A stretch of 37,401 nt of DNA from a virus: positions 1 through 37,401 of IMG/VR virus record IMGVR_UViG_3300027970_000710; one strand, 5' to 3'. Under the pieces are notes generated by a model. That model saw only the letters and a list, made by a program, of their open reading frames with translations. It ran no database searches and was not told where the DNA came from. Made by a program: the position numbers and the translations under genes. Positions 7,540-33,363 of the stretch are shown here, piece by piece (within the stretch, counting starts at the first letter, position 1; each line of letters begins with the position of its first letter).

Positions 7540-7542
7540 ACT

Positions 7543-8898: not shown

Positions 8899-8901
8899 AA
8901 T

Positions 8902-10274: not shown

Positions 10275-10275
10275 G

Positions 10276-10306
10276 TTGGCACTCTGACCAATCTTTCGTA
10301 TCTTTA
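10276..10306 (+). promoter_or_regulatory. Host-like promoter TTGG-N19-TATCTTTA
   Basis: TTGG 10276-10279, 19-base spacer ending TTTCG, TATCTTTA 10299-10306. The ATG of the polymerase-like gene follows 10 bases later. Same layout as eight other sites in this window. Confidence 0.65.
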
Positions 10307-10316
10307 GTCAAAGGTT

Positions 10317-18012: not shown

Positions 18013-18028
18013 ACACCAAAACAGGAAT

Positions 18029-18088
18029 CCCGGTGGGGGTAAGTCTATTTATAATAAAGCACTTTATGAATATAGAAAAACCACCGGG
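18029..18088 (+). promoter_or_regulatory. Late promoter and start codon enclosed in a nested hairpin
   Basis: Outer arms CCCGGTGG (18029-18036) and CCACCGGG (18081-18088) are perfect complements; a middle pair is TCTAT (18044-18048) with ATAGA (18072-18076); the inner hairpin ATAAAG-CA-CTTTAT (18053-18066 approx.) takes in the start of ATG 18066. TATTTATAA lies at 18046-18054. Transcripts coming from the helicase promoter can fold the whole structure; transcripts started at the box lack the left arms. Confidence 0.6.
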
Positions 18089-18983: not shown

Positions 18984-19359
18984 AATCGGAGATCTATTCT
19001 TTAAATTGGGAATTGAACCGCGACCGGAAAATATGTACCTTACGGAGTTTGACCTTAAAGTAAAAACACCTTACGGATTTAAACCAATAGTAACGTTATT
19101 CACAACAGAAAGACAACCCTCAATAACAACAACCTTTAGCAATGGAGAATCTTTAAATACATCAGGACACCACTTATTTAAAACAGAAAATAGAGAATGG
19201 GTAAAAGCTGAAGAACTAACCCCTAATGATCTGATACTTACAGAAGAGGGCGTAACTAAGGTAAGTAAGCAAGTAGTTGATAAAAAAGAAAAAGTAATGT
19301 ACGATCTTTCGGTAGCAGATGTATTTTGCTATTACAGTAACGGTATATTATCCCACAAT
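18946..19359 (+). other. Split intein C fragment in the helicase (138 aa, contains block B)
   Basis: The fragment begins MKIQTRTKTQKIKIGDLFFK, which resembles the 'kIkIgDLf' strand normally close to the intein N-terminus. Block B is LNTSGHHLFKTENREW followed by VKAEELTPNDLIL (about 70-98), and blocks F/G are VMYDLSVADVFCYYSNG and ILSHN. Because block B lies in this half, the break is far upstream of the usual site. Confidence 0.8.
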
Positions 19360-20124
19360 TCCTGGATGATGGTTGCAATGGCCGCTCACGCAGTTAAGAT
19401 GGGGTATAATGTCGTTTATTATACCTTGGAATTAGGGCAGGATTATGTAGGTAAACGATTTGACTGCTTCTTTACCGGACATTCTATCGAGGAGATTCAA
19501 CATCATAGATCAGAGGTTGAGCGCATAGTTGAAGGCCTGGCCGGTAAGTTGATAGTAAAAGAGTATCCGCCTAAAGGAGCCACTGTAGCAACCTTGAAAT
19601 CCCATCTTCAAAAGTGTATTGATGCTGATGTAAAACCTGATTTAGTTATTATCGACTATATTGATTACTTGAGAGCACCTTCCAAGAAATTTGCCGAGCG
19701 TAAGGATGAGATTGATGACTTGTATGTAAGTTGCAAAGGACTTGCTAAGGAATTTAAAGTAACCGTACTCTCACCTTCACAGGTTAACCGAATGGGAGCC
19801 AAGGATGATATCATCGAAGGAGATAAAGCAGCAGGTTCATACGATAAAATTATGGTTGCCGATTTCTGTTTATCCTTATCTAGAAAAAAGGAAGATAAGG
19901 TTCATGGAACAGGCCGAGTGCATATTATGAAGAACAGATACGGGATGGACGGTATGACTTTCGGAGCTAAGATTGATACTAACAACGGCCATATTGAATT
20001 AACAGAAGATATGCCGACTTATGAGGATACTAGCCCCAGTAGCACTACCTCATTCTCACAAGTTGATTCATTCGATAAACGAGAGCTTGCTAAGAAATTT
20101 GCACAACTTTCTAATTTCTCTTAA
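18946..20124 (+). CDS. Replicative DNA helicase (gp41/DnaB), split-intein C half fused to C-extein
   Basis: Residues 1-138 are the C fragment of the helicase intein, ending GILSHN; Ser139 is the +1 nucleophile and also the P-loop Ser. Residues 139-392 are the rest of the RecA-fold motor: SWMMVAMAAHAVKMGYNVVY, the catalytic Glu in YYTLELGQ, Walker B DLVIIDYIDYL, the sensor-like region TVLSPSQVNRMG, and the arginine-containing end VHIMKNRYGMDG. The start ATG 18946 lies inside the endonuclease gene and is preceded by AAGTT. After trans-splicing with the 17230 product the enzyme would unwind DNA ahead of the replication fork as a hexamer. Seen directly: complementarity of the two halves at the P-loop. 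Inferred: activity of the intein. Confidence 0.88.
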   Translation: MKIQTRTKTQKIKIGDLFFKLGIEPRPENMYLTEFDLKVKTPYGFKPIVTLFTTERQPSITTTFSNGESLNTSGHHLFKTENREWVKAEELTPNDLILTEEGVTKVSKQVVDKKEKVMYDLSVADVFCYYSNGILSHNSWMMVAMAAHAVKMGYNVVYYTLELGQDYVGKRFDCFFTGHSIEEIQHHRSEVERIVEGLAGKLIVKEYPPKGATVATLKSHLQKCIDADVKPDLVIIDYIDYLRAPSKKFAERKDEIDDLYVSCKGLAKEFKVTVLSPSQVNRMGAKDDIIEGDKAAGSYDKIMVADFCLSLSRKKEDKVHGTGRVHIMKNRYGMDGMTFGAKIDTNNGHIELTEDMPTYEDTSPSSTTSFSQVDSFDKRELAKKFAQLSNFS

Positions 20125-20183: not shown

Positions 20184-21446
20184 ATGGATATTAGTCAAAA
20201 AATTTTAAGCGATGTAACAGTCTTCTTAAAATACGCAAAGTACAAGCCGGAATTAAGCCGGAGAGAAACCTGGCAAGAACTGGTTATGAGGAACAAAGAG
20301 ATGCACCAGAAGAAATACCCTCAACTTGCCGAGGAGATTGAAGCAGCTTATAAATACGTCTACGATAAGAAGATTTTACCTTCAATGCGTTCTATGCAGT
20401 TTGCCGGACGGCCTATTGAGGTGAATCCTGCCCGTATTTACAACTGTGCTTTTTTACCAATTGATGATTGGAGAGCATTTGGAGAAGTAATGTTCCTACT
20501 TTTAGGAGGAACCGGAGTAGGTTATTCAGTTCAGTATGATCATATTGAAAAACTACCTGAGATTAGAAAACCAAATCCGAATAGATCGAAGAGATTCTTG
20601 ATCGGAGATTCAATTGAAGGATGGGCTGATGCAGTTAAAATCCTAATGAAGTCTTACTTCAGAGGAACTTCCACAATACTTTTTGATTATTCAGATATTA
20701 GACCAAAAGGTGCAAGATTAGTTACTGCAGGGGGTAAAGCACCCGGACCTGCTCCTTTGAGAGAATGCCTTACTAAATTACAGGGTATGCTTGAGGCGAA
20801 AAAAGACGGGGAACGTTTAACCACTATCGAAGTTCATGATATGGTTTGTCATATTGCTGACGCAGTACTGGCAGGTGGTATCAGAAGAGCTGCTTTGATC
20901 TCCTTATTCTCTGCCGATGATGATGAGATGATTGCTTGTAAATCAGGCGACTGGTGGGAATTGAATCCCCAGCGTGGAAGAGCAAACAACTCAGCAGTTC
21001 TTTTAAGATCAACTACTGAGAAAGAACAATTCTTAGATATTTGGAAAAGAATTGAAGCATCAGGAGCAGGAGAGCCAGGAATCTACTTTACTAATAATTT
21101 AGAGTGGGGAACCAATCCTTGCTGCTTTGTTGCCGACACTCAAATAGAGTTGGAGAATGGCAAAAAGAGTATTCTAGAGATTGTTGAAGGTTTGGAAAAA
21201 GGAGAGACCTATAAAGTACAAACCTACAACGAGGAAACACGTCAAATAGAGCTTCAAACTGTTAGAGCGGGAATACTTTCAAGAAAAGACAGTGTAGTTG
21301 TTGAACTTGAAGTAGAAGAAGATGGAGTGGTCTACCGTGTTAGTTGTACACCGGATCATAGGTTCTATACAACAAATAGAGGGTGGGTTGAATGTATGAA
21401 CTTAACACACGAAGATGATCTTGTAATATTTAACAAAGAAAAGTAA
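20184..21446 (+). CDS. nrdJ: Class II ribonucleotide reductase (NrdJ), N-extein fused to split-intein N half
   Basis: Residues 1-313 form the first half of an adenosylcobalamin-type reductase: PSMRSMQFAGRPIEVNPARI, NCAF with a redox Cys (88), LLLGGTGVGYSVQYDHIEKL, ADAVLAGGIRRAALISLFSADD, and GAGEPGIYFTNNLEWGTNPC. Asn311 and Cys313 are the N and the thiyl-radical Cys of the reductase motif NxCxE. Cys314 starts the intein (CFVADTQIELENG), 107 residues long, with block B as CTPDHRFYTTNRGWVECM. The stop TAA is at 21444-21446. The remaining motif residues C-E come from the second gene at 22331. The enzyme would reduce ribonucleotides for phage DNA synthesis. The insertion point resembles that of the known NrdJ-1 split intein (NPC/SEI flanks). 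Confidence 0.9.
   Translation: MDISQKILSDVTVFLKYAKYKPELSRRETWQELVMRNKEMHQKKYPQLAEEIEAAYKYVYDKKILPSMRSMQFAGRPIEVNPARIYNCAFLPIDDWRAFGEVMFLLLGGTGVGYSVQYDHIEKLPEIRKPNPNRSKRFLIGDSIEGWADAVKILMKSYFRGTSTILFDYSDIRPKGARLVTAGGKAPGPAPLRECLTKLQGMLEAKKDGERLTTIEVHDMVCHIADAVLAGGIRRAALISLFSADDDEMIACKSGDWWELNPQRGRANNSAVLLRSTTEKEQFLDIWKRIEASGAGEPGIYFTNNLEWGTNPCCFVADTQIELENGKKSILEIVEGLEKGETYKVQTYNEETRQIELQTVRAGILSRKDSVVVELEVEEDGVVYRVSCTPDHRFYTTNRGWVECMNLTHEDDLVIFNKEK
21123..21446 (+). other. Split intein N fragment in NrdJ (107 aa)
   Basis: Block A CFVADTQIEL at Cys314, then a beta-rich run and block B TPDHRFYTTNRGW with LTHEDDLVIF. Length and content are those of a canonically split intein N half (about 100 residues). 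Confidence 0.88.
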
Positions 21447-21516: not shown

Positions 21517-22326
21517 ATGAAAAATAAAAACGGAGGAAAAGTAAAGAAAGGGAATAACAAAAGCCGAGGGTATATTGGTTACCATACAACTTGGACCGGA
21601 AGCAAAGTTTTTCTGCGAAGCAAAGTTGAGTTTATTTATGCAAGAACCCTAGATCATCAAAAAATAGAGTACAAGGTGGAAAGTATGACATACTGTATAA
21701 ATGGTAAGAATTACAAGCCAGATTTTTTCTTATATAATCAAACAGGGCAGCTATATAAAATAGTTGAGACTAAAGGATGGGATGCAAAAGCTATCTCAGT
21801 AGAATACAAAGAAAAGTTTGCAGAATATTTTTTAAAAATAGGTGTAGAGTATGAAGTTGTTTGGAAGTACCAGAGACTAGTAAACCAGTACAACCTGCAA
21901 GCAGATATACAAGAGTGGGTTAAAAGGTCGATCACCGACTACGAACACGTAAAAAGCACTGCAGGGGAACATAACTCCATGTACGGTAAAAAACACACAC
22001 TGGAGACTAAAGCTCTAATTGCACAAAAAGCAAGGCAGCGACAAACACCAGAATATAGGGAGATGAACTCTAAAAAGCAAAAAGCTTACTGGTCGACTGA
22101 GGAGGGTAAGCAGCGGAGAGAGTTAGTAAGATTGCAAAAACTAGAACTCGCCAAACAAAAAAACCCAATAGTTGTAAGAGAGTGTAAACAGTGTCAGAAC
22201 TCCTTTACATGTAAGCAGAAAAGCACCCGGGAATTTTGCAACGGACAATGTTCACGAAAATGGAACTTTACTAACACCCCCGGTTACGGACAACATAAAA
22301 AGAAAATTAATAAAACAAAAAACTAA
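21517..22326 (+). CDS. Free-standing PD-(D/E)XK homing endonuclease within the fractured nrdJ locus
   Basis: A 269-residue basic protein between the two nrdJ halves. The nuclease part has FLRSKVEFIYARTLDHQKIE with a leading Glu, then NYKPDFFLYNQ and YKIVETKGWD, that is E...PD...ExK of the PD-(D/E)XK fold. Downstream are a NUMOD3-like unit (SMYGKKHTLETKALIAQKAR), a Lys/Arg-rich linker and a C-terminal zinc-binding unit with four Cys (CKQCQNSFTC...FCNGQC). By position it is the mobility gene of the split-intein locus; its nuclease family differs from the Vsr-like enzyme in the helicase locus. Its own TATTTATAA promoter lies in the loop of a 16-bp inverted repeat. Ends four bases before the second nrdJ ORF. 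Confidence 0.8.
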   Translation: MKNKNGGKVKKGNNKSRGYIGYHTTWTGSKVFLRSKVEFIYARTLDHQKIEYKVESMTYCINGKNYKPDFFLYNQTGQLYKIVETKGWDAKAISVEYKEKFAEYFLKIGVEYEVVWKYQRLVNQYNLQADIQEWVKRSITDYEHVKSTAGEHNSMYGKKHTLETKALIAQKARQRQTPEYREMNSKKQKAYWSTEEGKQRRELVRLQKLELAKQKNPIVVRECKQCQNSFTCKQKSTREFCNGQCSRKWNFTNTPGYGQHKKKINKTKN

Positions 22327-22330: not shown

Positions 22331-22438
22331 ATGGCAAAACTAATAAAAATAACAGTACAGGAGCATACACAGGATGTATATGATCTTGAAGTGGAAAACA
22401 ACCACAACTTCTTTGCAAATGGAATCTTAGCGCATAAC
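22331..22438 (+). other. Split intein C fragment in NrdJ (36 aa)
   Basis: Block F/G residues DVYDLEVENNHNFFANGILAHN with the penultimate His and terminal Asn, followed by Cys+1. The size matches canonical split-intein C halves (about 35-40 residues). Confidence 0.88.
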
Positions 22439-23362
22439 TGTGAAATTGCTTTACGTCCTTTTCAATTTTGTAACTTATGCGAAGTAAATGTTTCGGATAT
22501 TGAGTCTCAAGAAGATTTAAATAACAGAGTAAAGGCAGCATCTTTGATTGGAACCTTACAGGCCGGTTATTCTGACTTTCATTACTTAAGAGAAGTCTGG
22601 AAACGCACTACTGAGAAAGAAGCTTTGATCGGAGTATCAATGACCGGTATCGGCTCAGGAGTTGTTACTCACTGGACTTACAGTATGACCGAAGCAGCTG
22701 AATTAGTAAAGGTGGAGAATGAAAGGGTTGCTAAGATTTTAGGAATCAATAGTGCTGCAAGATGTACTACAGTTAAACCTGCAGGCACAACCTCGCTAAC
22801 ACTTGGAACCTCTAGTGGAATTCACGCCTGGCATAATGATTACTACCTAAGAAGAATGAGAGTAGGTAAGAATGAGGCAATTTATACATACCTTGCAATC
22901 CACCATCCTGACTTATTAGAAGACTGTGTACTCCGTCCTCACGATACTGCAATACTTACAATACCCCAAAAAGCACCAGAGGGAGCAATTCTAAGAACAG
23001 AATCACCTTTTGATCTTTTGGAAAGAGTAAAGCAGGTAACCAAGGAATGGATTAAGCCCGGTCATCGTAAAGGAAACAATAGTCACAACGTTTCTGCTAC
23101 AGTCTCTATTAAAGATGAGGAGTGGGGTACAGTTGGTGAATGGATGTGGGAGAACAGAAAATTCTATAATGGACTTTCAGTTTTAAATTACTCTGGACAT
23201 TCCTATAAGCAGGCTCCCTTTGAGGATTGCACAGAAGAGGAGTATGAAAGATTACTACAGACCTTATCCGATCTTGACTTAACCAAGGTAGTTGAGATGG
23301 AAGATATGACTGATCTAGCAGGAGAAGCGGCTTGTGCCGGTGGCGCTTGTGAGGTAAAATAA
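22331..23362 (+). CDS. nrdJ: Class II ribonucleotide reductase (NrdJ), split-intein C half fused to C-extein
   Basis: Residues 1-36 are a short intein C fragment (YDLEVENNHNFFANGILAHN), and Cys37 is the +1 residue. Cys37-Glu38 continue the active-site motif, so that trans-splicing yields NPC-CE (NxCxE). The rest (307 residues) has the second half of the reductase barrel: ALRPFQFCNLCEVNVSD, GVSMTGIGSG, RCTTVKPAGTTSLTLGTSSG (the P-x-G-T loop), YLRRMRVGKNE, and a final redox pair C-A-G-G-A-C near the end. The spliced enzyme would be 620 residues. Lack of an ATP-cone fits a minimal class II form. A strong terminator follows at 23387. Confidence 0.9.
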   Translation: MAKLIKITVQEHTQDVYDLEVENNHNFFANGILAHNCEIALRPFQFCNLCEVNVSDIESQEDLNNRVKAASLIGTLQAGYSDFHYLREVWKRTTEKEALIGVSMTGIGSGVVTHWTYSMTEAAELVKVENERVAKILGINSAARCTTVKPAGTTSLTLGTSSGIHAWHNDYYLRRMRVGKNEAIYTYLAIHHPDLLEDCVLRPHDTAILTIPQKAPEGAILRTESPFDLLERVKQVTKEWIKPGHRKGNNSHNVSATVSIKDEEWGTVGEWMWENRKFYNGLSVLNYSGHSYKQAPFEDCTEEEYERLLQTLSDLDLTKVVEMEDMTDLAGEAACAGGACEVK

Positions 23363-23425: not shown

Positions 23426-24112
23426 ATGAAGACATTAGTTATATCCGACGTCCATATTGGATCAAAAGGATGTCAAGCAGAAGCAGTTCTGGAGTTACTT
23501 GAAGATCAAAGTTATGAAAGATACATCCTGGTTGGTGATATTATTGATGGATGGTTATTTAAAAAATATAAAAAATTTGATTATAATCAGACTAAAATTA
23601 TCCGCAGGTTTTTAAAACTTTCAAAAAACAAACAGATTATCTGGATCTCCGGAAATCATGATGAATTTTTAAGAAAATATACCCCCTTAGAAATCGGCAA
23701 CATCACAATCGTGGATGAGTTTATAGAAGAAGGAATTTGGTTTTGTCACGGAGACGAATACGACGGTATTGTTCAGATGCACTGGCTTGGGATGCTCGGA
23801 GCTTTAGGTTACGATCTTGCAATCGTTATTGATAGGCTCTTAAAAAAATTAGGCAGGAAGAAAAGTCTTTCTAAATTTTTAAAAGATAATATTAAAGCTG
23901 CTATTTCTTTTATGGTTGATTTTGAGAAAGAGATGGTGAGACAAGCTAAAAAAAGAAACTGCCATACAGTAGTATGTGGGCATATTCATGCACCTTCGGA
24001 TAAACAAATTGGTGGTGTACGTTATATTAATTGCGGGGATTGGGTTGAAAATTGCTCTCACATTGTTTACTACTCACATTACAACACCTTAAAATTATGG
24101 AAGAAATACTAA
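23426..24112 (+). CDS. LpxH-like calcineurin-type metallophosphoesterase
   Basis: A 228-residue protein with the full dinuclear metal set: SDVHIG (Asp8, His10), VGDIIDG (Asp38), SGNHDE (Asn77, His78), WFCHGDE and CGHIHAPSD. The order and spacing, with an inserted helical part (~120-165) containing basic and hydrophobic residues, resemble the UDP-2,3-diacylglucosamine hydrolase LpxH and its UshA-like relatives rather than phage nucleases. LpxH acts in lipid A synthesis at the inner membrane. In a phage this could adjust the outer membrane of the infected cell, which fits the following glycosyltransferase. Its end overlaps the glycosyltransferase start by 16 bases. The substrate is not determined from sequence alone. 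Confidence 0.75.
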   Translation: MKTLVISDVHIGSKGCQAEAVLELLEDQSYERYILVGDIIDGWLFKKYKKFDYNQTKIIRRFLKLSKNKQIIWISGNHDEFLRKYTPLEIGNITIVDEFIEEGIWFCHGDEYDGIVQMHWLGMLGALGYDLAIVIDRLLKKLGRKKSLSKFLKDNIKAAISFMVDFEKEMVRQAKKRNCHTVVCGHIHAPSDKQIGGVRYINCGDWVENCSHIVYYSHYNTLKLWKKY

Positions 24113-24813
24113 CCATTGTTATTCCCTGTAAGAATGAGGAGAGTAACATTAGGAGGGTGCTATTAGAGTTGAAACAGCAGGACATTGGAAATACTGCAAT
24201 TATACTTGCTGACGCTAAATCCACAGACAAGACTAGGGTCCTAGCTAGTACTTCCGCTCTCGAACTTAATTTAAATCTAAGGATAGTAGACGGAGGGATG
24301 CCTGCTGTTGGAAGAAACACCGGAGCCAGGCTTGCTAAAACACCTTACATTTTATTTTTAGATGCTGATATTACATTTACATCTCAGTACGCAATCCAAG
24401 AAGCGATTGATTGTATACACAATAGAGCAATTGACATGGTGGGTACTACTCCACGGTATAAAGGAGAGCCTGATGTTAGAGCTTGGATACTATTTCGCTT
24501 AAACTTATTAGTAACCTGGTACCTTTCTAAGACACAGCCCTTTGCTATTGGAGGATTTACTTTAGTTAAAAAAACTATCTTTAAGAAACTAGGAGGTTAT
24601 GATGAAAGAGTAACTCAGTCTGAGGATTGGCTACTGAGTCGGCAGGTAAAACCATCAAAATTTTTATTAATACCTGATCTAATTACACAGGATAATCGCC
24701 GGTTTAAGCAGTACGGTTATTGGAAAATGATTAAGCTGCTATTAACTAATTTTATTAATAGAAAAAACCTTGGTCATTTCTATAAAGATGTTGGATATTT
24801 TAAAAAATCTTAG
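24097..24813 (+). CDS. Family 2 glycosyltransferase (GT2)
   Basis: A 238-residue protein. The N-terminus is LTIVIPCKNEESNIRRVL, the standard GT2 opening; IILADAKSTDKT gives the first Asp; VGRNTGARLAKTPYILFLDADI contains the D-A-D metal-binding triad (89-91); GYDERVTQSEDW has the acceptor-side E-D. The C-terminal ~40 residues include a hydrophobic/basic helix (MIKLLLTNFINRK) that may touch the membrane. I choose ATG 24097 (MEEILT) over the formal start at 24052, which would overlap the upstream gene by more than 50 bases. It probably transfers a sugar to a lipid or surface glycan, and with the LpxH-like gene could form an envelope-modifying pair; DNA glucosylation is less likely, since those enzymes are GT-B folds. 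Confidence 0.78.
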   Translation: MEEILTIVIPCKNEESNIRRVLLELKQQDIGNTAIILADAKSTDKTRVLASTSALELNLNLRIVDGGMPAVGRNTGARLAKTPYILFLDADITFTSQYAIQEAIDCIHNRAIDMVGTTPRYKGEPDVRAWILFRLNLLVTWYLSKTQPFAIGGFTLVKKTIFKKLGGYDERVTQSEDWLLSRQVKPSKFLLIPDLITQDNRRFKQYGYWKMIKLLLTNFINRKNLGHFYKDVGYFKKS

Positions 24814-24824: not shown

Positions 24825-24833
24825 TATTTATAG
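24825..24833 (+). promoter_or_regulatory. TATTTATAG, late-type promoter motif
   Basis: Eight of nine bases of the recurrent box, three bases before ATG 24837. It would start the secreted-protein cassette. Confidence 0.4.
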
Positions 24834-24836: not shown

Positions 24837-25295
24837 ATGCAAAAGTTGTTTCTCCTACTGTTTTTACTACCCTCTAGTTTGTTTTCACAAACCAATGTTC
24901 ATAAGGCAGGTGATGGTTGGGATTCAATTGTTTATTCAGCTATCAATCTTATCAAAAAAACATCCCCCTACCATTATGTAATCTTTGAAAACGTGGTACA
25001 GGAAGTGCAATTTTGGAATGAAGATTATTCATCAAATAATTTAGTGGAAGGGAAGGGTATTATAGTAATATCATCCAAGGATATCAAGCTTAATTCAATT
25101 AACAATTTAGCTGCAGCCTTGGTACACGAGAGTTATCATTTAAAAGTCCTTAAGTACGGTCCTGATATAGCAGGAAGGGAAGAGGAATATCTTTGTTATG
25201 TTCATGAATTAAAGTTTTTAAAATTGTTGCCTAATGTAGAGCCGGACCTTCTGACCTATACAAAAGAACAAGTAAAACTTTGGAACATAAAATGA
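24837..25295 (+). CDS. Secreted protein with HExxH motif, putative metalloprotease
   Basis: A 152-residue protein with a clear signal peptide (KLFLLLFLLPSSLFSQ, cleavage about residue 18). The mature part has one recognisable motif, LAAALVHESYHLKVLKYG, with His97-Glu98 and His101 of a zinc HExxH helix, followed by GREEEYLCYVHELKFL, where Glu116-118 could give the third ligand as in gluzincin-like small proteases. The overall fold is unassigned. It is the first gene of a run of exported proteins, starts 3 bases after a late-type box, and overlaps the next ORF start. It may process the exported proteins coded downstream or a host envelope protein; both are guesses. Confidence 0.6.
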   Translation: MQKLFLLLFLLPSSLFSQTNVHKAGDGWDSIVYSAINLIKKTSPYHYVIFENVVQEVQFWNEDYSSNNLVEGKGIIVISSKDIKLNSINNLAAALVHESYHLKVLKYGPDIAGREEEYLCYVHELKFLKLLPNVEPDLLTYTKEQVKLWNIK

Positions 25296-27181
25296 AAAAA
25301 ATAACACTCCTCCTCCTAATGGCTATTGCAGCTATTGGAGCATTCGCACAATCGGCAGCTACCTCACCCGGAACCGGGCATTGGGTAGTGATTGACTCCG
25401 GCTACCAGGTAGCAACAAACACAGTTGGTAAGACTGTTGCACCTCTGTATTTCCACAATACCTCCACCAGTAAAAAAATCACCGGTATGCAATTCAGAGT
25501 ATTCTACGATAAGGCAGCTTTTGCTTCAGTAGTTCCTTCTTTGAAAATTTCTGCTACAGAGCAATACCTGCAGTATGTTGATGATAATACAAATGGTAGT
25601 TTAACAGTAACCGTTGTTTACACAGGTACTAACGCATCTTTTAACTATGCTAATGGAGCTACCTTTGATTTGACTTTCAATCACGTTGCTGAAGCAGCTT
25701 GGAACGTTTTAGACTCTGTTAAAACTTTAAAAGTATCAGGTGTAAATTCATTCCCTAACGTTGCTTCAACTAATATGGGTAATGATACTACCTTGGTAGT
25801 TTATTCTTACGGTGGTCGTTTCAATCAGAAGATGCTTAGATTTGCCGGTAAGTTTATCAATACTACCGGGACTAATGCTAAAAACTTATGGGTTAGCTTA
25901 GAAAAGAAATCACCAGCAGGATCTTGGACCACAGTATTAACTCAGAAGACTAATGCTTCCGGTGTTGTAGTATTCTACAAAAACATTGATACTACGTATT
26001 GGGATGTTAGGATGGCAATCAAAGGAGATACAATGACTCCTGGTTCCGTATTCTCAACTGCTGATGCACAGAAGATCAACCAAGCAGTGTTAGGACAATA
26101 CACAGTTAAAGGCTTTGATTATTACTCAATGGATGTTAACGGAGCAGACGGGGGTATAACAATTGCAGACGTTTATTCAGTCTATGGAAGACTTGCAGGT
26201 AGATTCACTGCATGGCCTAATTCCCAGAATGATATTAAATTCTTCACAGTATCTGAATACAATACAATTAATGGGTCAGGGACAAACTACACAAGCACAA
26301 TTACTGGTTTGACCAACTTGTATTACCCTATTGACGGTAAAGACTCAATTACCTACTATGTGAATGTTAAAGGTGATGCTAACGGAACAGGATTTAAAAT
26401 GGCTCGTTTAACACCAATTAAAATAACTAACCCAGTTAATGCTAAAAATTATATTATTGATAACACAGTCACTTACGATAACGTATTTGAAACTATTGAA
26501 ATCAATATGCCTAAGGTTAAAGTTGATGAAGGTAATTTAGTTAACATCCCTGTTAAGGTTTTAACCAACGGGGTTAAATTAGGTGCATTTCAACTTGAAT
26601 TAAAATACGATACTACGCTATTAACATTTGCTAAAATTGATTTGACTGAAAAGATGATGAATTGGATGTCTTACACCAACCCAGACAAGGGAGTAATTGC
26701 TTTCGGTTCAGCGGACCTAAAAGGTGATAACTTACTGAATGATGGTGAGCAGGTAATGACTGTGCAGTTTATTGCTAAGAAGCCACAAGACGAATGGGGA
26801 ACTGCTGCAATCTGGACCGGCCCTAAGTTTGTAGGCGGTAATGACGCCAGAGACATGAATGTAAATCCTACAATGGGTATTGTAGAAGTTAGGAAGATCA
26901 AACAAGATGTAACAATAAAAGGTCTTGAGCAATTAATTATTTATCCAAATCCAAACCAGGGAGAAGTAATAGTTGAATTTAGAGTCCAGGTAGACTCAGA
27001 TGTTAATATCAACGTTACAGATATGATTGGCAAAAAAGTATTAGAAATTCTAAATACTAAAATGCCTGCCGGGGATTACAAATACCTAGTAAAGTTGGAT
27101 GTTTTAAATAACGGAATGTACATAATGTCTCTTCAGACAAGCACAACTTCTGAAGCACATAAAATATTTATAAACAAATAA
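25292..27181 (+). CDS. Secreted cohesin/dockerin-like protein with T9SS C-terminal sorting domain
   Basis: A 629-residue protein with a signal peptide (KKITLLLLMAIAAIGAFAQ). Two beta-sandwich regions look like cohesin domains (about 30-150, and about 400-535: VDEGNLVNIPVKVLTNGVKL, YDTTLLTF). In between, at ~255-300, is a dockerin-like unit: DAQKINQAVLG, then YYSMDVNGADGGITIADVYS with calcium-loop spacing D-x-N-x-x-D-G. The last ~75 residues (IIYPNPNQGEVIVEF, DMIGKKVLEI, GMYIMSLQ, HKIFINK) match the type A T9SS sorting domain (Por secretion tail, TIGR04183 style). I choose ATG 25292, because it gives a normal signal peptide. T9SS cargo is exported across the outer membrane and attached to the cell surface. 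A phage gene with this tail is rare; function is unknown. Confidence 0.82.
   Translation: MKKITLLLLMAIAAIGAFAQSAATSPGTGHWVVIDSGYQVATNTVGKTVAPLYFHNTSTSKKITGMQFRVFYDKAAFASVVPSLKISATEQYLQYVDDNTNGSLTVTVVYTGTNASFNYANGATFDLTFNHVAEAAWNVLDSVKTLKVSGVNSFPNVASTNMGNDTTLVVYSYGGRFNQKMLRFAGKFINTTGTNAKNLWVSLEKKSPAGSWTTVLTQKTNASGVVVFYKNIDTTYWDVRMAIKGDTMTPGSVFSTADAQKINQAVLGQYTVKGFDYYSMDVNGADGGITIADVYSVYGRLAGRFTAWPNSQNDIKFFTVSEYNTINGSGTNYTSTITGLTNLYYPIDGKDSITYYVNVKGDANGTGFKMARLTPIKITNPVNAKNYIIDNTVTYDNVFETIEINMPKVKVDEGNLVNIPVKVLTNGVKLGAFQLELKYDTTLLTFAKIDLTEKMMNWMSYTNPDKGVIAFGSADLKGDNLLNDGEQVMTVQFIAKKPQDEWGTAAIWTGPKFVGGNDARDMNVNPTMGIVEVRKIKQDVTIKGLEQLIIYPNPNQGEVIVEFRVQVDSDVNINVTDMIGKKVLEILNTKMPAGDYKYLVKLDVLNNGMYIMSLQTSTTSEAHKIFINK
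27165..27173 (+). promoter_or_regulatory. TATTTATAA motif before the 27185 gene
   Basis: Lies in the last codons of the T9SS-cargo gene, 11 bases before ATG 27185. It probably gives a second late transcript for the downstream membrane and lipoprotein genes. Confidence 0.4.
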
Positions 27182-27184
27182 ACT

Positions 27185-27544
27185 ATGGGGATTAAAGAAA
27201 GAATCAAAAACGCAGTCGGAATAAAATCCGAATTTGTTCAAGTAGACGATAAGAATCGTTTCTACTTCATGTTACAGCAAATGCAGAATAACCGCTGGAA
27301 GATTACAGCTATCGTATTAGGATTATTTACCCTAATCATTGTAGGGATCAACTCAGCTGTATTTTTCGGAGTACCAATCGGGGAAGATTGGAAAGAGTTA
27401 TTGCTTATCTTATTAGGAGCATTTGTAGGAAACTTAAATAAAGTAGTTGACTACTGGTTTAATTCTGAGGATAGAGATAAAATGCTAATTCAGAAAGTAG
27501 ATGAGGAGGACGGGCAATCATTATCAAGCACACTAGAAGGTTAA
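27185..27544 (+). CDS. Small membrane protein with two TM helices
   Basis: A 119-residue protein. A basic N-terminal amphipathic part (GIKERIKNAVGIKSEFVQ) is followed by TM1 (ITAIVLGLFTLIIVGINSAVFF, quoted in part: ~40-60) and a shorter hydrophobic stretch ELLLILLGAFVG (~72-83), then an acidic tail. This is a holin-like layout, but it lies in the export cassette, not beside the endolysin, so a scaffold or anchoring role is also possible. It ends four bases before the next gene. Confidence 0.6.
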   Translation: MGIKERIKNAVGIKSEFVQVDDKNRFYFMLQQMQNNRWKITAIVLGLFTLIIVGINSAVFFGVPIGEDWKELLLILLGAFVGNLNKVVDYWFNSEDRDKMLIQKVDEEDGQSLSSTLEG

Positions 27545-27548
27545 AATT

Positions 27549-27869
27549 ATGTCAGAAGAAAAAGAAGAAGGTAGTTCATCTACCATTAAAAAAGCCATCA
27601 TCGGAGCTATTACCACTGCGGTAACTGCCGGTGGTGCATGGTTTGCTACCCACTTAGGAGGTGGTGAAGAAGCAAAAGAGGAAGTTAAAACAGAGCAAGT
27701 TGCCCCGGCTGCTGCTCCTGTTATTAATATCACTACTAATAACGAACAAAAACAACAAACCTCAGGAGGTACTAACACAGTTATTTACAAAGAGAAACCA
27801 GCCCCCGCAGCTGCATCTCCTGCTAAATCAGAACCTGCTACACCAAAAGAAGAAGAATCACCATGGTAA
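27549..27869 (+). CDS. Small single-TM protein with Ala/Pro/Glu-rich tail
   Basis: A 106-residue protein. An acidic N-terminus (SEEKEEGSSS) precedes a hydrophobic, Ala/Gly-rich segment (AIIGAITTAVTAGGAWFATH, 16-35), and the rest is low-complexity: GGGEEAKEEVK, an Asn/Gln/Thr region, and AAASPAKSEPATPKEEESPW. It may span the inner membrane once and reach into the periplasm or bind a partner, like a TonB-type spacer, but no TonB box is seen. It overlaps the CsgG-like gene by seven bases, suggesting joint translation. Function unknown. Confidence 0.6.
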   Translation: MSEEKEEGSSSTIKKAIIGAITTAVTAGGAWFATHLGGGEEAKEEVKTEQVAPAAAPVINITTNNEQKQQTSGGTNTVIYKEKPAPAAASPAKSEPATPKEEESPW

Positions 27870-28549
27870 AAAATATTCTAATTTCTTTCTTACTAGTAAT
27901 TTTAATTGGTTGTGGTTCAATGAAAACCACTACTGAAAAAGATGTAATTGAAACTAAAAGTATTTCATCAGTATCTAATTACACTGACTCTATTAAAAAC
28001 ACAGTTCAAGTAATTAATGTTGATTTAACTAAAGTTTTAGCTTTATACCCTAGTTTACAAGAAAAGAATGTTGGATTAGGATTTGCCGAATCAGTACTTG
28101 ATTACTTAGATGAGACTAACAGATTTATCTTCACAGAAGAAAAACAAGAAATTAAAGAGCGAATGGTTACTCAATTTAAAGCTTCTAAAAAAGGAGTCTT
28201 TGAAGAACCAATTGATGGCAAAGGTAAGATCAAGGCTGCTCGTTACTTTGTTTATGTCTCTGTGGCCGATTTTGCTGTTGATGAAGATGAGTCTGTCGCA
28301 GGTGCAAAAGGTAAGGTTGTGGTTACAACATTCATTCGCCTGCAGGTAAGATTTGTAGATGCGATGACCGGTCAAATTTACATCGGTTCAGGTGAAGGTG
28401 AAGCAACTAAAACAGGTGAATCATTCATGAAATCTCTTGATATGAAGTTTTCTCAAAGTACGGTAGGTAAAGCAACTAGAAAGTCTTTAGAGACTGCTAC
28501 AACTAAAGTAATTGAAAACTTAATCAAAGCCGGTGTCTTTAAAAACTAA
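27863..28549 (+). CDS. CsgG-like outer-membrane lipoprotein
   Basis: A 228-residue lipoprotein precursor: ISFLLVILIGCGSMKT has a lipobox (L-I-G-C, Cys17). The remaining sequence has the CsgG/HfaB-like pattern: early SIKNTVQVINVD strand, EKQEIKERMVTQF helix, KIKAARYFVYVSVADFAV strand, VVVTTFIRLQVRFVDAMTGQIY strands, and a final VGKATRKSLETATTKVIENL helix typical for the end of the CsgG family (gAt..A...av..l...i). CsgG forms the outer-membrane pore that secretes curli. Here it lies between a membrane protein and a predicted OM barrel and near secreted cohesin/GEVED-type proteins, suggesting an export or surface-assembly unit. Assignment is by pattern, not search, so moderate. Confidence 0.6.
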   Translation: MVKNILISFLLVILIGCGSMKTTTEKDVIETKSISSVSNYTDSIKNTVQVINVDLTKVLALYPSLQEKNVGLGFAESVLDYLDETNRFIFTEEKQEIKERMVTQFKASKKGVFEEPIDGKGKIKAARYFVYVSVADFAVDEDESVAGAKGKVVVTTFIRLQVRFVDAMTGQIYIGSGEGEATKTGESFMKSLDMKFSQSTVGKATRKSLETATTKVIENLIKAGVFKN

Positions 28550-29930
28550 AATATTATTCTTTTTTTTAATAATTGGGCTGTCTGTAAAAGGGCAGTCCTT
28601 TTTGTATTCATACATAGATCCTTGTACACAGCAAACTAAATTTATTACAGCAGACATGTCCGCACCTGTCATAATAGCATACTACGGACAAGTAAAGGCA
28701 TTCACTTATTTAGAACTGAGTAACGGGGTTTTTGAGAGTTGGTTAAATGATATTTATAATAAGTATAAATCTACATCCCCATGCCAGGGTGTGTTCACCA
28801 CTACTACAACCACCACTTCAACCAACCAAGTTTCAAACATTATTGGAAATGTAACAAGCCTGGTTAGCCTGGATTTATCCTCTGTAGCCGGAACGGCAGC
28901 AGGAGGGGTGGGGAGTAACATTGGTAGCACTACTTCCTCTGGGTCAGGTAGTGTAGAAGTAAAAAATAATAAAAATGGAAGCTCACCTGATAAGAACCAG
29001 AAGACCGATGGAAACTCTACAAATGATCCTACAAATGGGTCTAGCTCTGGTAGTAGCGATGGGACCTCTAGTTCTGGTAATACAGATGGTGAAGGAACCG
29101 GCCAAGGGTCGTCAGAAGGGCAAGAAGGCCAGGTAGGCAGTAATTCAGGCTCATCTAAGGGTTCTTCTTCTAACTCTACAGAAGGTGGGGGGTCAGAGAA
29201 GCCTTCAGAACAGAAGGTAGAGGATCAGAAGACAGAAACTCAAAAATCACAATCAAACAGTACTGCTAAGGCAGCCTCCAAAGCAAAAACAGAAACTCAG
29301 AAACCTGCAATCTTACTTACAGGGGATATTGTGGGTATACAAACGGCTGCTGATAAAGCACAGGATGCTAGAGCAACCATGTCTTTCACAAGAGTAAAAG
29401 GGGATGGCACGGCCTCCATCGGCTTTTCAGCAGACTATATGGTCGGTGCCAGGATTGGTAACGTGTCTGGGATTAAATCCTGGATTGGAACTAATGAAAA
29501 AGGAAACAAACACATAAATGTAATTTCTGCCGGAATAGGCTTAATGCCGCAGTCAACAACCGGGAATATATTATTTATAAGAGTTAATTCATTAAAGAAT
29601 TTTACAGCACTTTATGGAGCAGCAGGAACATACGGAGAGTTGTTTGGCGAAGAATTAATATCAACGATTGCGATTGTGGGTTGTATGTATAAGGGTAAGA
29701 TCGGTAAAGCAGTTGATGCAACAATAATAGCAGCCGGAATCTACTCCCCTTATCAAAAATACTATACCGAGACTTTTTTCAAAGCCAAGCCTATCGTTAT
29801 TCCTTTCTTAAACTTGAATTATAAGATAACAAAGACGTTTGGATTTGGATTAACCGGAGGAGGTACCTATATTGCAGGACAGGACATTCTAAACTTTCAA
29901 ATCTTGATGGGAGCAAAATTAAAACTATGA
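28533..29930 (+). CDS. Predicted outer-membrane beta-barrel protein with Ser/Gly-rich linker
   Basis: A 465-residue protein; start GTG 28533 is chosen because it gives a signal peptide (KTKILFFFLIIGLSVKGQ) and because no ATG is available before it. Residues ~25-85 are a small Cys-containing domain; ~90-270 is low-complexity (GSSSGSSDGTSSSGNTDGEG and similar, then Lys/Glu/Gln); from ~275 alternating hydrophobic strands (ASIGFSADYMVGARI; HINVISAGIGLM; ATIIAAGIYSPYQKY; FGFGLTGGGTYIAG) end in FQILMGAKLKL, characteristic of an outer-membrane barrel. It overlaps the CsgG-like gene by 17 bases and the next gene by four (ATGA), so it is co-translated. It may be a surface-exposed receptor block or part of a secretion unit. 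No family name given. Confidence 0.6.
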   Translation: MSLKTKILFFFLIIGLSVKGQSFLYSYIDPCTQQTKFITADMSAPVIIAYYGQVKAFTYLELSNGVFESWLNDIYNKYKSTSPCQGVFTTTTTTTSTNQVSNIIGNVTSLVSLDLSSVAGTAAGGVGSNIGSTTSSGSGSVEVKNNKNGSSPDKNQKTDGNSTNDPTNGSSSGSSDGTSSSGNTDGEGTGQGSSEGQEGQVGSNSGSSKGSSSNSTEGGGSEKPSEQKVEDQKTETQKSQSNSTAKAASKAKTETQKPAILLTGDIVGIQTAADKAQDARATMSFTRVKGDGTASIGFSADYMVGARIGNVSGIKSWIGTNEKGNKHINVISAGIGLMPQSTTGNILFIRVNSLKNFTALYGAAGTYGELFGEELISTIAIVGCMYKGKIGKAVDATIIAAGIYSPYQKYYTETFFKAKPIVIPFLNLNYKITKTFGFGLTGGGTYIAGQDILNFQILMGAKLKL

Positions 29931-30997
29931 GGTGGGTTATCATTCTCTTTTTTTTCACAGCTACAGCTTACTCCCAATCACCCCTATGTGCAAGTAGGCC
30001 AACAAACTTCTGCTGTGAGTATGTTTCCGGAGTAACTATCAACGGGAAATCATTTAAAGGAAGTACTGGATTCACAGCCGGATCAGGAGGAAGTCCTGCC
30101 GGGTATTATGACTACACTTCCACAAAAGACACTATCCCTAGAATTAAAGCAGGTCAATCCATCTCTATTTCATATACAGGAGTTACTAATGGTAACTATA
30201 TGCAATACTTTAAATTATGGATTGATTTTAATGGCAATGGTTTATTAACAGATGCTGGTGAATTAGTCCATGCTCAGAACCAATCTTGGTCAGGCACAAG
30301 GACTATGACTGCTACGTTTGTAGTACCGACATCTGTATACAATGGAGAAGTTTATATGAGATTTGTGATGCAATTCAGCGGCTCTCCTGTCATTTGCGGA
30401 ACCTACTCCTACGGTAATACTTTTGATTTCAGAACTAGAATTGTGGGAGCTACTGATCCCTTTTCTTACACAGGGTATATCTACAATTCTAAAGGAACAG
30501 GCATTCAAAACATCCCGGTTAAGTTTTATTCTAAATTAAAATCTGCCACAGCCTATACTTTAGAAAATACAATCAACACAGATGCAAGTGGTAAGTATAG
30601 TATTTCATCAACCAAAGACGCTACCGTGTATGACTTCCAGCTTGAAATTAGCAATCTAAGTATTGCAGCCCCTTCAATCTCTGATGCACAGCAATTCAAC
30701 CAAAAAATATTTACAGGCAACTTTACAGCTATAGACTATTACACAATGGATGTCAATAATAATAATACGTTAACAATCACAGATGTGTATCTAATCTATA
30801 GAAGAGTACTGGGTATCAGCTGGAGAAGTGGAGTTCCTAGCTACAGGTTATTTACAGCTACGGAGTGGAATACTATTACCAGTAGTGCCAATAACCTAAA
30901 AGCAACATACCCTGGCATTCAGACTACAACACTCCCTAGACTCACAAATAAAGGTAGTATAAATTATTACCTAGTTCGAACGGGATACATAAACTAA
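29927..30997 (+). CDS. Secreted GEVED/dockerin-like protein
   Basis: A 356-residue protein with signal peptide (RWVIILFFFTATAYSQ). A Cys-rich start (CASRPTNFCCEY) is followed by a GEVED-type adhesion domain: KLWIDFNGNGLLTDAGELVH (95-114). Next comes a carboxypeptidase-regulatory-like beta domain (TGYIYNSKGTGIQNIPVKFY), then a dockerin-like unit DAQQFNQKIFTG...YYTMDVNNNNTLTITDVYL, and a tail YRLFTATEWNTITSSANNLK. This last ~120-residue portion is paralogous to residues ~250-370 of the T9SS-cargo protein at 25292. It has no T9SS sorting domain, so export beyond the periplasm is uncertain. ATGA overlap with the barrel gene. Confidence 0.7.
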   Translation: MRWVIILFFFTATAYSQSPLCASRPTNFCCEYVSGVTINGKSFKGSTGFTAGSGGSPAGYYDYTSTKDTIPRIKAGQSISISYTGVTNGNYMQYFKLWIDFNGNGLLTDAGELVHAQNQSWSGTRTMTATFVVPTSVYNGEVYMRFVMQFSGSPVICGTYSYGNTFDFRTRIVGATDPFSYTGYIYNSKGTGIQNIPVKFYSKLKSATAYTLENTINTDASGKYSISSTKDATVYDFQLEISNLSIAAPSISDAQQFNQKIFTGNFTAIDYYTMDVNNNNTLTITDVYLIYRRVLGISWRSGVPSYRLFTATEWNTITSSANNLKATYPGIQTTTLPRLTNKGSINYYLVRTGYIN

Positions 30998-30999
30998 AC

Positions 31000-31008
31000 T
31001 ATTTATAA
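31000..31008 (+). promoter_or_regulatory. TATTTATAA motif before the 31012 gene
   Basis: Ends three bases before ATG 31012; likely starts the lysis-gene transcript at late times. Confidence 0.45.
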
Positions 31009-31011
31009 AGG

Positions 31012-31464
31012 ATGCTTAGCATATTAGCTCCGATATTGTTTGCCTTAGTTCCACAAAAGGATACCACGTCTGTAAAAATACATACTCATAACTATACTCA
31101 AGTTAAAAAAATTGGGGATAGAGATCCTCTATTCGGAGTTAAAGAAAATATTGAAGAATTACTAATTGAGAAAGGGTATACCCCAGTTGATTCTGGATAC
31201 GGACTAGATGTTCATGTCTCTATTGATAGTGTCTATTCACCGCAGGAATTAATTAATATTGCAGGGTTGCAGTGGTTACGTAAAGATTACATAGTAGAAA
31301 CTACTATTTGTATTGGATCAGGTTGTTTTAAGGGCAGAGGTGAAAGAAAAACTTTCATTTTCGCTATGTTTTTAACTGTTGAGAATAATGAAATTCCTTT
31401 AAATAGGAAAGCATTCTCAAAAGCATTACAAGAAGCACTAACTAAAACAACTAAACAATTCTAA
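31012..31464 (+). CDS. Exported or membrane-anchored hypothetical protein
   Basis: A 150-residue protein with a short hydrophobic N-terminus (LSILAPILFALVPQ), a weak signal peptide or anchor. The mature part contains GVKENIEELLIEKGYTPVD, which looks like a small alpha/beta lipoprotein domain of the kind that pairs with CsgG-like or DUF4136-like periplasmic proteins (helix ELLIEKGY, strand LDVHVSID), a Cys pair (CIGSGC, 103-108), and FIFAMFLTVENN. The C-terminal helix KAFSKALQEALTKTT also has the flavour of the CsgG-like C-terminus. I cannot assign it. It is two bases from the holin-like gene. Confidence 0.55.
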   Translation: MLSILAPILFALVPQKDTTSVKIHTHNYTQVKKIGDRDPLFGVKENIEELLIEKGYTPVDSGYGLDVHVSIDSVYSPQELINIAGLQWLRKDYIVETTICIGSGCFKGRGERKTFIFAMFLTVENNEIPLNRKAFSKALQEALTKTTKQF

Positions 31465-31465: not shown

Positions 31466-31726
31466 ATGAAAAAATTTTTCACACAATTATTTGACGACAA
31501 CAACACAATCAACGAAAAGAGTGTTGTGGGCTTTATTGCATTCATAATGCTCTGCCTTGCTTTCCTAGTAGATGTAATTACAGGCTACTTTGGAAAAGAG
31601 TTTGTAGTCAACAAGCTTGTCTTTGAAGGCTTTATGGTACTAGTTTTAGGATCATTCGGAATAGCTTCAGTGGACAAGTGGATCAACAAAAAGAAATCAA
31701 CAGACGAAGATAAAAACGAAGGTTAA
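31466..31726 (+). CDS. Holin-like small membrane protein
   Basis: Eighty-six residues with two hydrophobic helices (VVGFIAFIMLCLAFLVDVI, 20-38; LVFEGFMVLVLGSFGIASVD, 51-70) and a highly charged C-terminal tail (KKKSTDEDKNEG). This is the class II holin layout. It starts one base after the upstream stop and ends two bases before the GH19 endolysin gene, the normal holin position. I give it as the best candidate for timing lysis; the gene at 32950 is a second candidate. Confidence 0.65.
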   Translation: MKKFFTQLFDDNNTINEKSVVGFIAFIMLCLAFLVDVITGYFGKEFVVNKLVFEGFMVLVLGSFGIASVDKWINKKKSTDEDKNEG

Positions 31727-31728
31727 TT

Positions 31729-32559
31729 ATGTTACTAAAAAAAGGAGACAACAACGAAGACGTTAGAAAATTACAAATCAAACTAGGTGTAGACCCAGTT
31801 GGTAATTTTGGACCAAAAACAGAAGAAGCAGTTAAGGCTTGGCAAAGAGCAAATGGATTAGAAGATGACGGCGTAGTAGGAGACGGAACATGGAATAAGA
31901 TGTTCGGGACAACTCCAGCACCTACAGCTACTCCAGCTCCAACCACAATCTTAGTTTCTTCATTTAAACTTGATAAACTAAAAGGGCACATCCCTGATTC
32001 TGTAATAGCAGCAATCCCTGATACGGCAGCTAAATTTAATATCACAAACGTTCTACGTTTGGCTCACTTCCTTGCACAGGCAGGGCATGAATCAGGACAA
32101 TTTAAAGCCACTCAAGAAAATTTAAATTATTCATCAAAAGGCTTATTAGGCATCTTTCCAAGATACTTTAATGCTGCTACTGCTGAACAATATGCTCGTA
32201 AACCTGAAATGATTGCTTCTAAAGTTTATGGAAGTAGAATGGGTAATGGAGCCGAGGCTACTAAAGAAGGTTACAGATTTAGAGGGAGAGGTTATATCCA
32301 ATTAACCGGTAAAGACAACTACACACAATTTGATAAAGCAGTCCCAGAAGACATTCTAGCTAATCCAGATTTAGTGGCAGGCAAGTATGCCTTAATGTCA
32401 GCTGCCTGGTTCTTTGATAAAAATAAATTATGGGGTATTTGCGATAGGGGAGCGGATCAAGCTACAATAACAGCAGTTACAAAAAGAGTAAATGGTGGAA
32501 CAATTGGATTACCTGATCGTATTAAACATTTCAACGAATATTATAATTTATTAAAATAA
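31729..32559 (+). CDS. Endolysin: peptidoglycan-binding domain plus GH19 lysozyme/chitinase-like domain
   Basis: A 276-residue protein without a signal peptide, thus dependent on a holin. Residues 3-60 form a PG-binding_1 domain (DNNEDVRKLQIKLG, AVKAWQRANGLEDDG, TWNKMFG). A Thr/Pro/Ala linker (61-73) leads to a GH19 domain: LAHFLAQAGHESGQF with catalytic Glu121, ATQENLNYSSKGL with Glu130, RFRGRGYIQLTGKDNYTQF, LMSAAWFFDKNKL and VTKRVNGGTIGLPDR. GH19 phage enzymes cut the glycan strands of peptidoglycan. The order PGBD-linker-GH19, and the flanking holin-type genes, support a lysis role. It ends with a one-base overlap (TAATGA) with the next gene. Confidence 0.9.
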   Translation: MLLKKGDNNEDVRKLQIKLGVDPVGNFGPKTEEAVKAWQRANGLEDDGVVGDGTWNKMFGTTPAPTATPAPTTILVSSFKLDKLKGHIPDSVIAAIPDTAAKFNITNVLRLAHFLAQAGHESGQFKATQENLNYSSKGLLGIFPRYFNAATAEQYARKPEMIASKVYGSRMGNGAEATKEGYRFRGRGYIQLTGKDNYTQFDKAVPEDILANPDLVAGKYALMSAAWFFDKNKLWGICDRGADQATITAVTKRVNGGTIGLPDRIKHFNEYYNLLK

Positions 32560-32936
32560 TGAGCCAATTTCAATTAAAAGAAAAACAGGGGTACATTTAT
32601 GTAGGTGAATACTTTCACAAGTTTGGTGGTACAGTACCTTCAGAGAAGAAAATAGGTAAAATAGATGACCTATTAAAAATACCTCAAATAGACGACCATG
32701 CATTCAGTCTAGACTTTCATACCCCGGATATTTACCTTGTTGATGATATGGATATGCTTTACACAGCACTAACTGTCCTACTAAGTCATGATGTTATTAG
32801 AGAAGATTGGTTTGCAGACAGCGACAATGACTTAAAAGACCGAGTGGCTAGCTTTATGAAAGCATTAGGGTATACTGAAATTGCGGATGTGGATGGAGAC
32901 GGAATCCCAGACCATCTAGATGATACTATAGGCTAA
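32559..32936 (+). CDS. Hypothetical protein with calcium-loop motif, in the lysis cluster
   Basis: A 125-residue soluble protein starting on the endolysin stop codon. No membrane segment. Residues 1-60 contain YIYVGEYFHKFGGTVPS, an alpha/beta region of unknown fold; the end has DVDGDGIPDHLDD (109-121), a D-x-D-x-D-G calcium loop of the type-3 thrombospondin/EF-hand kind. Coupled to both lysis neighbours. Function unknown; the Ca motif is the only recognisable part. Confidence 0.6.
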   Translation: MSQFQLKEKQGYIYVGEYFHKFGGTVPSEKKIGKIDDLLKIPQIDDHAFSLDFHTPDIYLVDDMDMLYTALTVLLSHDVIREDWFADSDNDLKDRVASFMKALGYTEIADVDGDGIPDHLDDTIG

Positions 32937-32949
32937 TAAGACAACAAAA

Positions 32950-33363
32950 ATGAAAACCACCATACTAGCAACTACAGCAGTTCTTTCCTTTATCTGCACT
33001 TACTTTTTAAATTTAGCTATGGATAATGCTGATCAATACCTAGCAATTGTTGCTGTAATCTTTATGGATGGTTTTTTTGGAATTATTGCAGGAGTAAAAC
33101 GGGAAGGATTTAAAACCTACAAAGCAATTAAAGTATTAAAAACTTTAGTTGCCTGGATCATAACTTTAACAGTCTTATTGATGGTTGAGCAGGGCTTCAA
33201 AGGTACAGCCTGGTTATCAGAAACAATCCTAATACCTCTAATAGTCTTCCAGCTTATAAGCTCTCTAAAAAATGCTGCCGATGGAGGATTCGTAAAGAAC
33301 GAACTGCTGGTACAGATACTACAAAAAATAGATCAACATAAAACAAACGAAGGCAAGAATTAA
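32950..33363 (+). CDS. Phage holin family protein (holin_4/BhlA-like membrane protein)
   Basis: A 137-residue membrane protein. TM1 TTILATTAVLSFICTYFLNL (3-22), TM2 YLAIVAVIFMDGFFGIIAG (30-48) followed by KREGFKTYKAIKVLKTLVAW, TM3 IITLTVLLMVEQG, and TM4 ILIPLIVFQLISSL. The segment 'D..fGi.ag.k....s.ka...l.k...' is characteristic of the holin_4_1 family. It ends in a charged tail. It follows the calcium-loop gene by 13 bases. A terminator overlaps its stop codon, so this closes the lysis operon. Confidence 0.72.
   Translation: MKTTILATTAVLSFICTYFLNLAMDNADQYLAIVAVIFMDGFFGIIAGVKREGFKTYKAIKVLKTLVAWIITLTVLLMVEQGFKGTAWLSETILIPLIVFQLISSLKNAADGGFVKNELLVQILQKIDQHKTNEGKN

Follow-up and report, generated by a model that had tools for sequence, protein, structure and literature searches.

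The virus record IMGVR_UViG_3300027970_000710, a stretch of 37.4 kb that we call the window, contains a cassette of eight genes, O1 to O8, located at positions 24837-31464 on the + strand. Its architecture, which is well supported, combines a cohesin-bearing scaffold, a partner with exchangeable heads and several envelope proteins, as follows:

24837-25295, + strand: O1, secreted protein with an HExxH zinc motif (HESYHL...EEE)
25292-27181, + strand: O2, scaffold (first-listed start at 25280, the ATG at 25292 being likelier)
27185-27544, + strand: O3, inner-membrane protein with two transmembrane segments, very conserved in alignments
27549-27869, + strand: O4, inner-membrane protein with one transmembrane segment, a Pro/Ala/Glu-rich periplasmic tail and a terminal Trp that is invariant in alignments
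27863-28549, + strand: O5, CsgG-superfamily outer-membrane lipoprotein with shortened hairpin regions
28533-29930, + strand: O6, N-terminal DPC domain, long Ser/Gly linker and predicted C-terminal 12-strand outer-membrane barrel (residues 259-463)
29927-30997, + strand: O7, secreted adhesin-like protein with a GEVED head, a CarboxypepD-like domain and a dockerin-like C-terminus
31012-31464, + strand: O8, small secreted protein of unknown family

A previous sequence-only reading of this DNA had delimited an export cassette with the same coordinates, which, together with the gene calls, proved correct upon checking. It had counted seven of the eight genes as coding for exported or membrane proteins; the cassette stands, although the count has to be raised, because all eight products bear such signals. 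Signal peptides are present in O1, O2, O6, O7 and O8 (weakest in the last), O5 carries the lipobox LIGC, and O3 and O4 contain the membrane segments indicated above. None of the 25 genes upstream (15 to 24813) has an export- or membrane-type N-terminus. The genes overlap or nearly abut, with junctions, in order, of -16, +3, +4, -7, -17, -4 and +14 bp, in agreement with the coupled operon that had been proposed. That reading had also named an HExxH protein, a cohesin protein with a sorting signal for the type IX secretion system (T9SS), dockerin-like modules, an outer-membrane barrel and late-type boxes, all of which find support in the results that follow.

A cohesin scaffold and a partner with exchangeable heads

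O2 is composed of a signal peptide, a first cohesin-like domain, a CarboxypepD-like/dockerin-like module, a second cohesin and a T9SS type A tail. Pfam searches recovered a cohesin (5.3e-10), with a second cohesin stretch also present, and Por_Secre_tail (1.4e-10), the tail being recognised as well by TIGR04183 (9.5e-9); O2 has, therefore, the signal peptide and the C-terminal type A sorting domain that characterize type A T9SS cargo. There is one T9SS-tailed protein per phage, always O2, in 11 of 11 large phage records, all of which also show the C-terminal cohesin; the weaker N-terminal cohesin was above threshold in eight of them, always in the same open reading frame (ORF).

According to alignments, O7 ends in a second copy of the CarboxypepD-like plus dockerin-like module that is located between the cohesins of O2. 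Exactly two copies of the dockerin-like module, limited to O2 and O7 (gp014 and gp013 in the isolate Flavobacterium phage immuto, NC_055915), were counted in 12 of 13 records, and no dockerin-bearing catalytic subunits appeared in the phage records searched. Matches to Dockerin_1 were below the Pfam cut-off (0.16 in the window, 0.0067 in the relative L059 and, at best, 2.2e-4 in the O2 of L099), and the modules are supported as dockerin-like. Sequence searches of solved structures covered O1, O2, O5, O6, O7 and O8, and yielded no useful matches for any of them.

Two immuto genes correspond to O2, namely gp014 (cohesin-like domain and module) and gp015 (cohesin and T9SS tail), with separate signal peptides; in GenBank, the labels are 'cohesin domain-containing' for gp015 and 'lectin C-type' for gp013, and no system is described there. 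Because O2 is fused in the window and split in immuto, the sequences suggest that its two halves probably meet non-covalently. In the simplest chain, a surface-bound gp015 would hold with its cohesin the module of gp014, whose own cohesin would in turn hold the module of gp013, the lectin. The most distant relatives, L109 and L110, conserve the cohesin-module-cohesin layout (judged by eye in L109; Pfam cohesin at 5.5e-6 in L110) as well as O5 and O6, and lack the T9SS tail; the scaffold with O5/O6 would thus be the core of the system, and the T9SS an add-on.

O7 is a secreted protein whose dockerin-like C-terminus is joined to one of four exchanged domains, which in the window is a GEVED head (Pfam, 6.4e-12). 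Across relatives, the heads matched Lectin_C (1.7e-17), PA14 (6e-6) or GEVED (6e-12), the fourth one having no family. The 84 loci with a readable O7 slot comprised 29 with a C-type lectin, 25 with the unknown domain, 20 with GEVED and 10 with PA14. Different heads occur in phages whose O5 products are 99-100% identical. In exchanges among the lectin, PA14 and unknown heads, the last 114 residues are 77-88% alike and the middle of the protein goes down to 34-50%, whereas exchanges to GEVED bring along a more divergent C-terminus (34-37% alike). In a tree built from O5 and the O6 barrel, we counted no fewer than 21 changes of head type, the minimum possible being 3, compared to 24 or more in 200 shuffles. 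A diversity-generating retroelement behind the lectin heads was discarded, as 13 records contained no reverse transcriptase.

The unknown head (U400), second in frequency, is a domain of around 195 residues (L007:12053-13258, residues 45-245) that matched no Pfam family and no PDB sequence. It was not found outside O7, for example in tail proteins, being present only in the O7 of 4 of the 13 records.

Envelope proteins of the cassette

Residues H97, E98 and H101, together with E116 and E117, are invariant in 27 homologs of O1, and the homolog in L099 shows a weak SprT-like match (6e-4). O8 is conserved in alignments as far as immuto gp019; none of its 31 members belongs to a Pfam family, and a protein-family scan gave only chance matches. 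An AlphaFold2 model of O6 contains 12 strands at residues 259-463, with a predicted local distance difference test score (pLDDT) of around 60-79 for the barrel, and its leading structural matches in the PDB are nearly all outer-membrane barrels; the barrel of PelB (9h80, Z 13.9) is also among the matches. The PelB/PelC exporter pairs a lipoprotein ring with a barrel partner; its likeness to O5/O6 is by analogy only, with no sequence relation shown, and all barrels score alike against O6.

O5 has no Pfam match of its own, and 7 of 34 homologs touch the Pfam CsgG profile below threshold (best, 0.011). Using a custom CsgG profile built from E. coli, pelagiphage, Melnitz and Pseudomonadota sequences, O5 homologs scored mostly from 1e-9 to 4e-14, with a few from the immuto branch at around 1e-5, compared to more than 0.2 for shuffled or unrelated ORFs. 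Likewise, hhalign comparison of O5 with CsgG gave a probability of 97.7 over 215 of 228 residues. The match with ten curli-type CsgG alone was weak (probability 43), and the single-sequence comparison with E. coli CsgG uninformative; hence, we assign O5 to the CsgG superfamily and not to curli CsgG. Foldseek searches with an O5 model of pLDDT 49 retrieved CsgG as best matches, at E of around 2e-3. Matches of this low-confidence model to RAD52 and ribosomal proteins (VIA-align, Z up to 8.9) were set aside as common alpha/beta arrangements.

The sequence-only reading had proposed a CsgG-type pore, of which the relationship to CsgG holds, whereas the pore, as stated, is not supported. The regions of O5 that match both membrane hairpins of CsgG are, in the alignment, around 12 residues shorter each and charged, and immuto O5 lacks the lipidation cysteine. 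Since the hairpin regions are shortened and charged, O5 is more likely to form a periplasmic ring than a pore.

Promoter-type boxes, distribution and neighbourhood

Three copies of the late-type box TATTTATA precede cassette genes, at the following positions:

24825-24832, + strand: TATTTATA, 12 bp before O1
27165-27172, + strand: TATTTATA, 20 bp before O3
31000-31007, + strand: TATTTATA, 12 bp before O8

This box occurs in the window 18 times on the coding (+) strand and once on the - strand, with about two occurrences expected. A second type of box, TTG-N18-20-TAnnTTTA, precedes in the window SSB, the helicase and other genes. In immuto, TATTTATA precedes structural genes such as terL, portal, sheath and tube; among the early-type genes examined it is rare, and many of these bear TTG-N18-20-TAnnTTTA. 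Close upstream of O1, O3 and O8, TATTTATA is the sole box type, and the second type is absent from the upstream regions of O1-O8 across relatives. Also, TATTTATA lies upstream of O8 in 29 of 56 distinct relatives, over a background of 1.8%. From the distribution of boxes in the window, immuto and relatives, late expression of the cassette appears likely. We also observed TATTTATA before free-standing homing-endonuclease genes (at 12987, 21517 and 35954); in T4, late promoters likewise precede genes of this type.

The cassette is conserved in more than 120 phage contigs from IMG/VR, where relatives of O5 were found in 122 places, or 137 with a broader query. The order O1-O2-O3-O4-O5-O6-O7-O8 is repeated in about 100 contigs, which places the cassette far beyond chance. 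A rearranged cassette exists in immuto, a phage of Flavobacterium sp. LMO8 with a 160-kb genome and T4-like head and tail genes, whose O5 homologue shows 42.6% identity; as in the window, it is situated downstream of replication genes. In the immuto branch, O1 is placed after O8, and in immuto itself O1 was not seen. The carriers form a large set of T4-like phages whose hosts are Bacteroidota-type bacteria. When O5 was searched in 84,980 species genomes of bacteria and archaea, a single match came up, an 84% identical contig in a Sphingomonadaceae metagenome-assembled genome; we read it as a phage contig and, in this search, which did not address Bacteroidota genomes as a group, rejected a bacterial source of O5.

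A secreted DNA/RNA non-specific endonuclease is often found within cassettes of the immuto branch (L098:6205-6783; L110:5949-6560, PF01223 1.2e-34) and outside the cassette in several other records, L105, L108 and L112 also carrying an endonuclease. It could destroy incoming or extracellular DNA.

Besides the cassette, the window codes for an SSB, a UvsX-like recombinase, an exonuclease, a DnaB-like helicase, a ribonucleotide reductase, an endolysin and a holin. Immediately around the cassette are:

24052-24813, + strand: glycosyltransferase family 2 (PF00535, 7e-21), directly upstream and outside the cassette
31466-33363, + strand: downstream genes of the same run, for a two-transmembrane protein, a GH19 endolysin, a 125-aa protein and a holin

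The glycosyltransferase is a possible partner of the cassette. In most contigs, the cassette is likewise followed by a small two-transmembrane gene, an endolysin and a holin.

Further from the cassette, ribonucleotide reductase is split over two genes (20184-21446 and 22331-23362), separated by a free-standing endonuclease-like gene (21517-22326). An intein N-terminal region closes the first one (TIGR01445, 1.2e-7) and an intein C-terminal region opens the second (TIGR01443, 8e-11); judging from these matches, this is a fractured gene with a split intein. The DnaB-like helicase (17230-20124) is also split, with a break directly after GGGK|C (Walker A), resumption after an intein-like ...SHN|S, and a 336-aa ORF of unknown function between its parts. 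Finally, region 788-11600 codes for proteins of 794, 734, 516, 446 and 427 aa, possibly structural, for which PHROG and Pfam gave no match.

Proposed function and known systems

We propose that the phage encodes in this cassette a late apparatus that spans the envelope and displays an exchangeable adhesin on the cell surface, with receptor masking as the likeliest benefit, a reading that we consider about evenly balanced between right and wrong. O2 would enter the periplasm by its signal peptide and reach the cell surface by the host T9SS, forming there a two-cohesin scaffold on which O7 would dock by its dockerin-like tail, bearing an exchangeable ligand-binding head. O5, probably as a ring against the inner side of the outer membrane, may constitute, together with O3, O4 (an inner-membrane tether with a docking Trp at its end) and the O6 barrel, a structure across the envelope by which O7 is exported or anchored. 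Glycans or receptors of the infected cell would be coated by the head of O7, such that fewer rival phages adsorb and fewer progeny get stuck to the dying cell or its debris. The sequence-only reading had suggested that superinfection could be blocked; the late-type boxes appear more compatible with a late role than with early superinfection exclusion of the classical kind.

Several observations weigh against this proposal. The late timing is deduced from sequence boxes, some of which are separated from the start codon by just 12 bp; O7 is devoid of a T9SS tail, and how it would cross the outer membrane is a guess; the dockerin matches below the Pfam cut-off are accompanied by a single clear calcium loop; the loss of the tail in L109 and L110 implies that the T9SS is not essential to the module; and the AlphaFold2 model of O5 is poor.

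Surface display of an exchangeable adhesin is the core common to several readings, and masking, clumping or help in lysis would look the same in sequence; we prefer masking of host glycans over roles in aggregation or lysis. The displayed heads might instead attach to particles or to nearby cells, making infected cells clump and allowing the progeny to reach new hosts. A single chain with two cohesins and an internal dockerin-like module could indeed polymerise, the O7 heads are adhesive domain types, and 'sibling capture' was already proposed for pelagiphage curli (PMC7029224, PMC9599517). However, no aggregation was found on inspection of the curli-carrying phage Melnitz (PMC9004378) and late-type boxes leave little time before lysis; we consider this role unlikely. 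We find somewhat less probable still a lysis module, in which O3 would be holin-like, O4/O5 a spanin-like pair, O6 a perturber of the outer membrane and O1 a protease, with O2 and O7 as passengers. It would explain that the cassette leads directly into endolysin and holin genes, and is consistent with the late-type boxes; the only distant match of O3 in the phage collection is a weak relative located between the holin and amidase genes of Thalassomonas phage BA3, and the topology of O4/O5 and the overlap of their genes are compatible with an i-spanin/o-spanin pair, the match of O4 to an Rz-like spanin being weak (0.093). But the endolysin and holin genes of immuto (gp190-191) are 30 kb away from its cassette, O5 is a 228-aa CsgG relative and not a short o-spanin, and lysis offers no role to a T9SS scaffold or to lectin heads that are swapped.

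The membership of O5 in the CsgG superfamily, and the adjacency of csgF-csgG to the SSB gene in pelagimyophages, a comparable genome position, could also indicate a diverged curli-type (type VIII) exporter, in which O5/O6 would serve to secrete a fibre or effector, either O7 or O8, with the scaffold being secondary. This we regard as improbable, because the eight cassette proteins contain no Pfam match to CsgF or curlin (CsgA/B) at E up to 1, and because of the shortened hairpin regions of O5 and the missing lipid-anchor cysteine in immuto. Lectin-like folds are common in phage tails and, with the late-type boxes, would fit a role of the products as decoration of the virion or its baseplate; however, by their signal peptides, lipobox, barrel and T9SS tail the products would leave the cytoplasm, where T4-like virions assemble, and we give this option very little credit.

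The sequence-only reading considered the cassette not to be a known phage module, which is true only in part. Phage CsgG/CsgF operons (PMC7029224, PMC9004378, PMC9599517) and phage-encoded T9SS cargo (PMC7468147) are already published; in the open-access papers searched, we found no report of a phage cohesin/dockerin system or of its combination with CsgG and T9SS parts. Phage curli, from pelagiphages and Melnitz, also occur in T4-like marine or aquatic phages, as an operon near SSB with a CsgG-superfamily outer-membrane lipoprotein, but the cassette lacks CsgF, curlin and, judging from the alignment, full hairpins in O5, and has in addition a separate barrel, a cohesin scaffold with a T9SS tail and adhesive heads that are swapped. 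If our proposal is true, phage CsgG relatives, puzzling since 2020, can serve systems other than curli. The T9SS cargo of cryophages similarly has type A tails and proteins that vary between near-identical phages (PMC7468147); there, the cargo consists of separate enzymes and a PA14 protein, whereas in the cassette the tail is on a conserved scaffold and the variable partner has none. The Llp of phage T5 is a precedent for receptor masking, with the same proposed outcome of avoiding unproductive adsorption to infected cells or debris, although it is a single early periplasmic lipoprotein (PMC9586334) and not an eight-gene, late-type surface system.

As in bacterial cellulosomes, a scaffold bears the cohesins, and the partner that would plug into it bears a dockerin-like module; here, however, the system is viral and would be T9SS-anchored, and the partner has a lectin-type head, with no dockerin-bearing catalytic subunits in the records searched. 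Tentatively, and with less confidence than in the general proposal, we suggest that the cassette may be the viral equivalent of a cellulosome. A cohesin-dockerin scaffold would assemble by itself on the infected cell, by means of the host T9SS and the phage's own CsgG-like/barrel apparatus, and present adhesive heads that phages exchange among themselves as cartridges, and that would bind or mask glycans at the surface. The existence of four interchangeable heads suggests an arms race at the cell surface, and the carriers are aquatic phages, widespread and with one representative in culture, which makes the reading open to testing. If true, this would be the first virus known to build a scaffolded adhesin display on the surface of its host.

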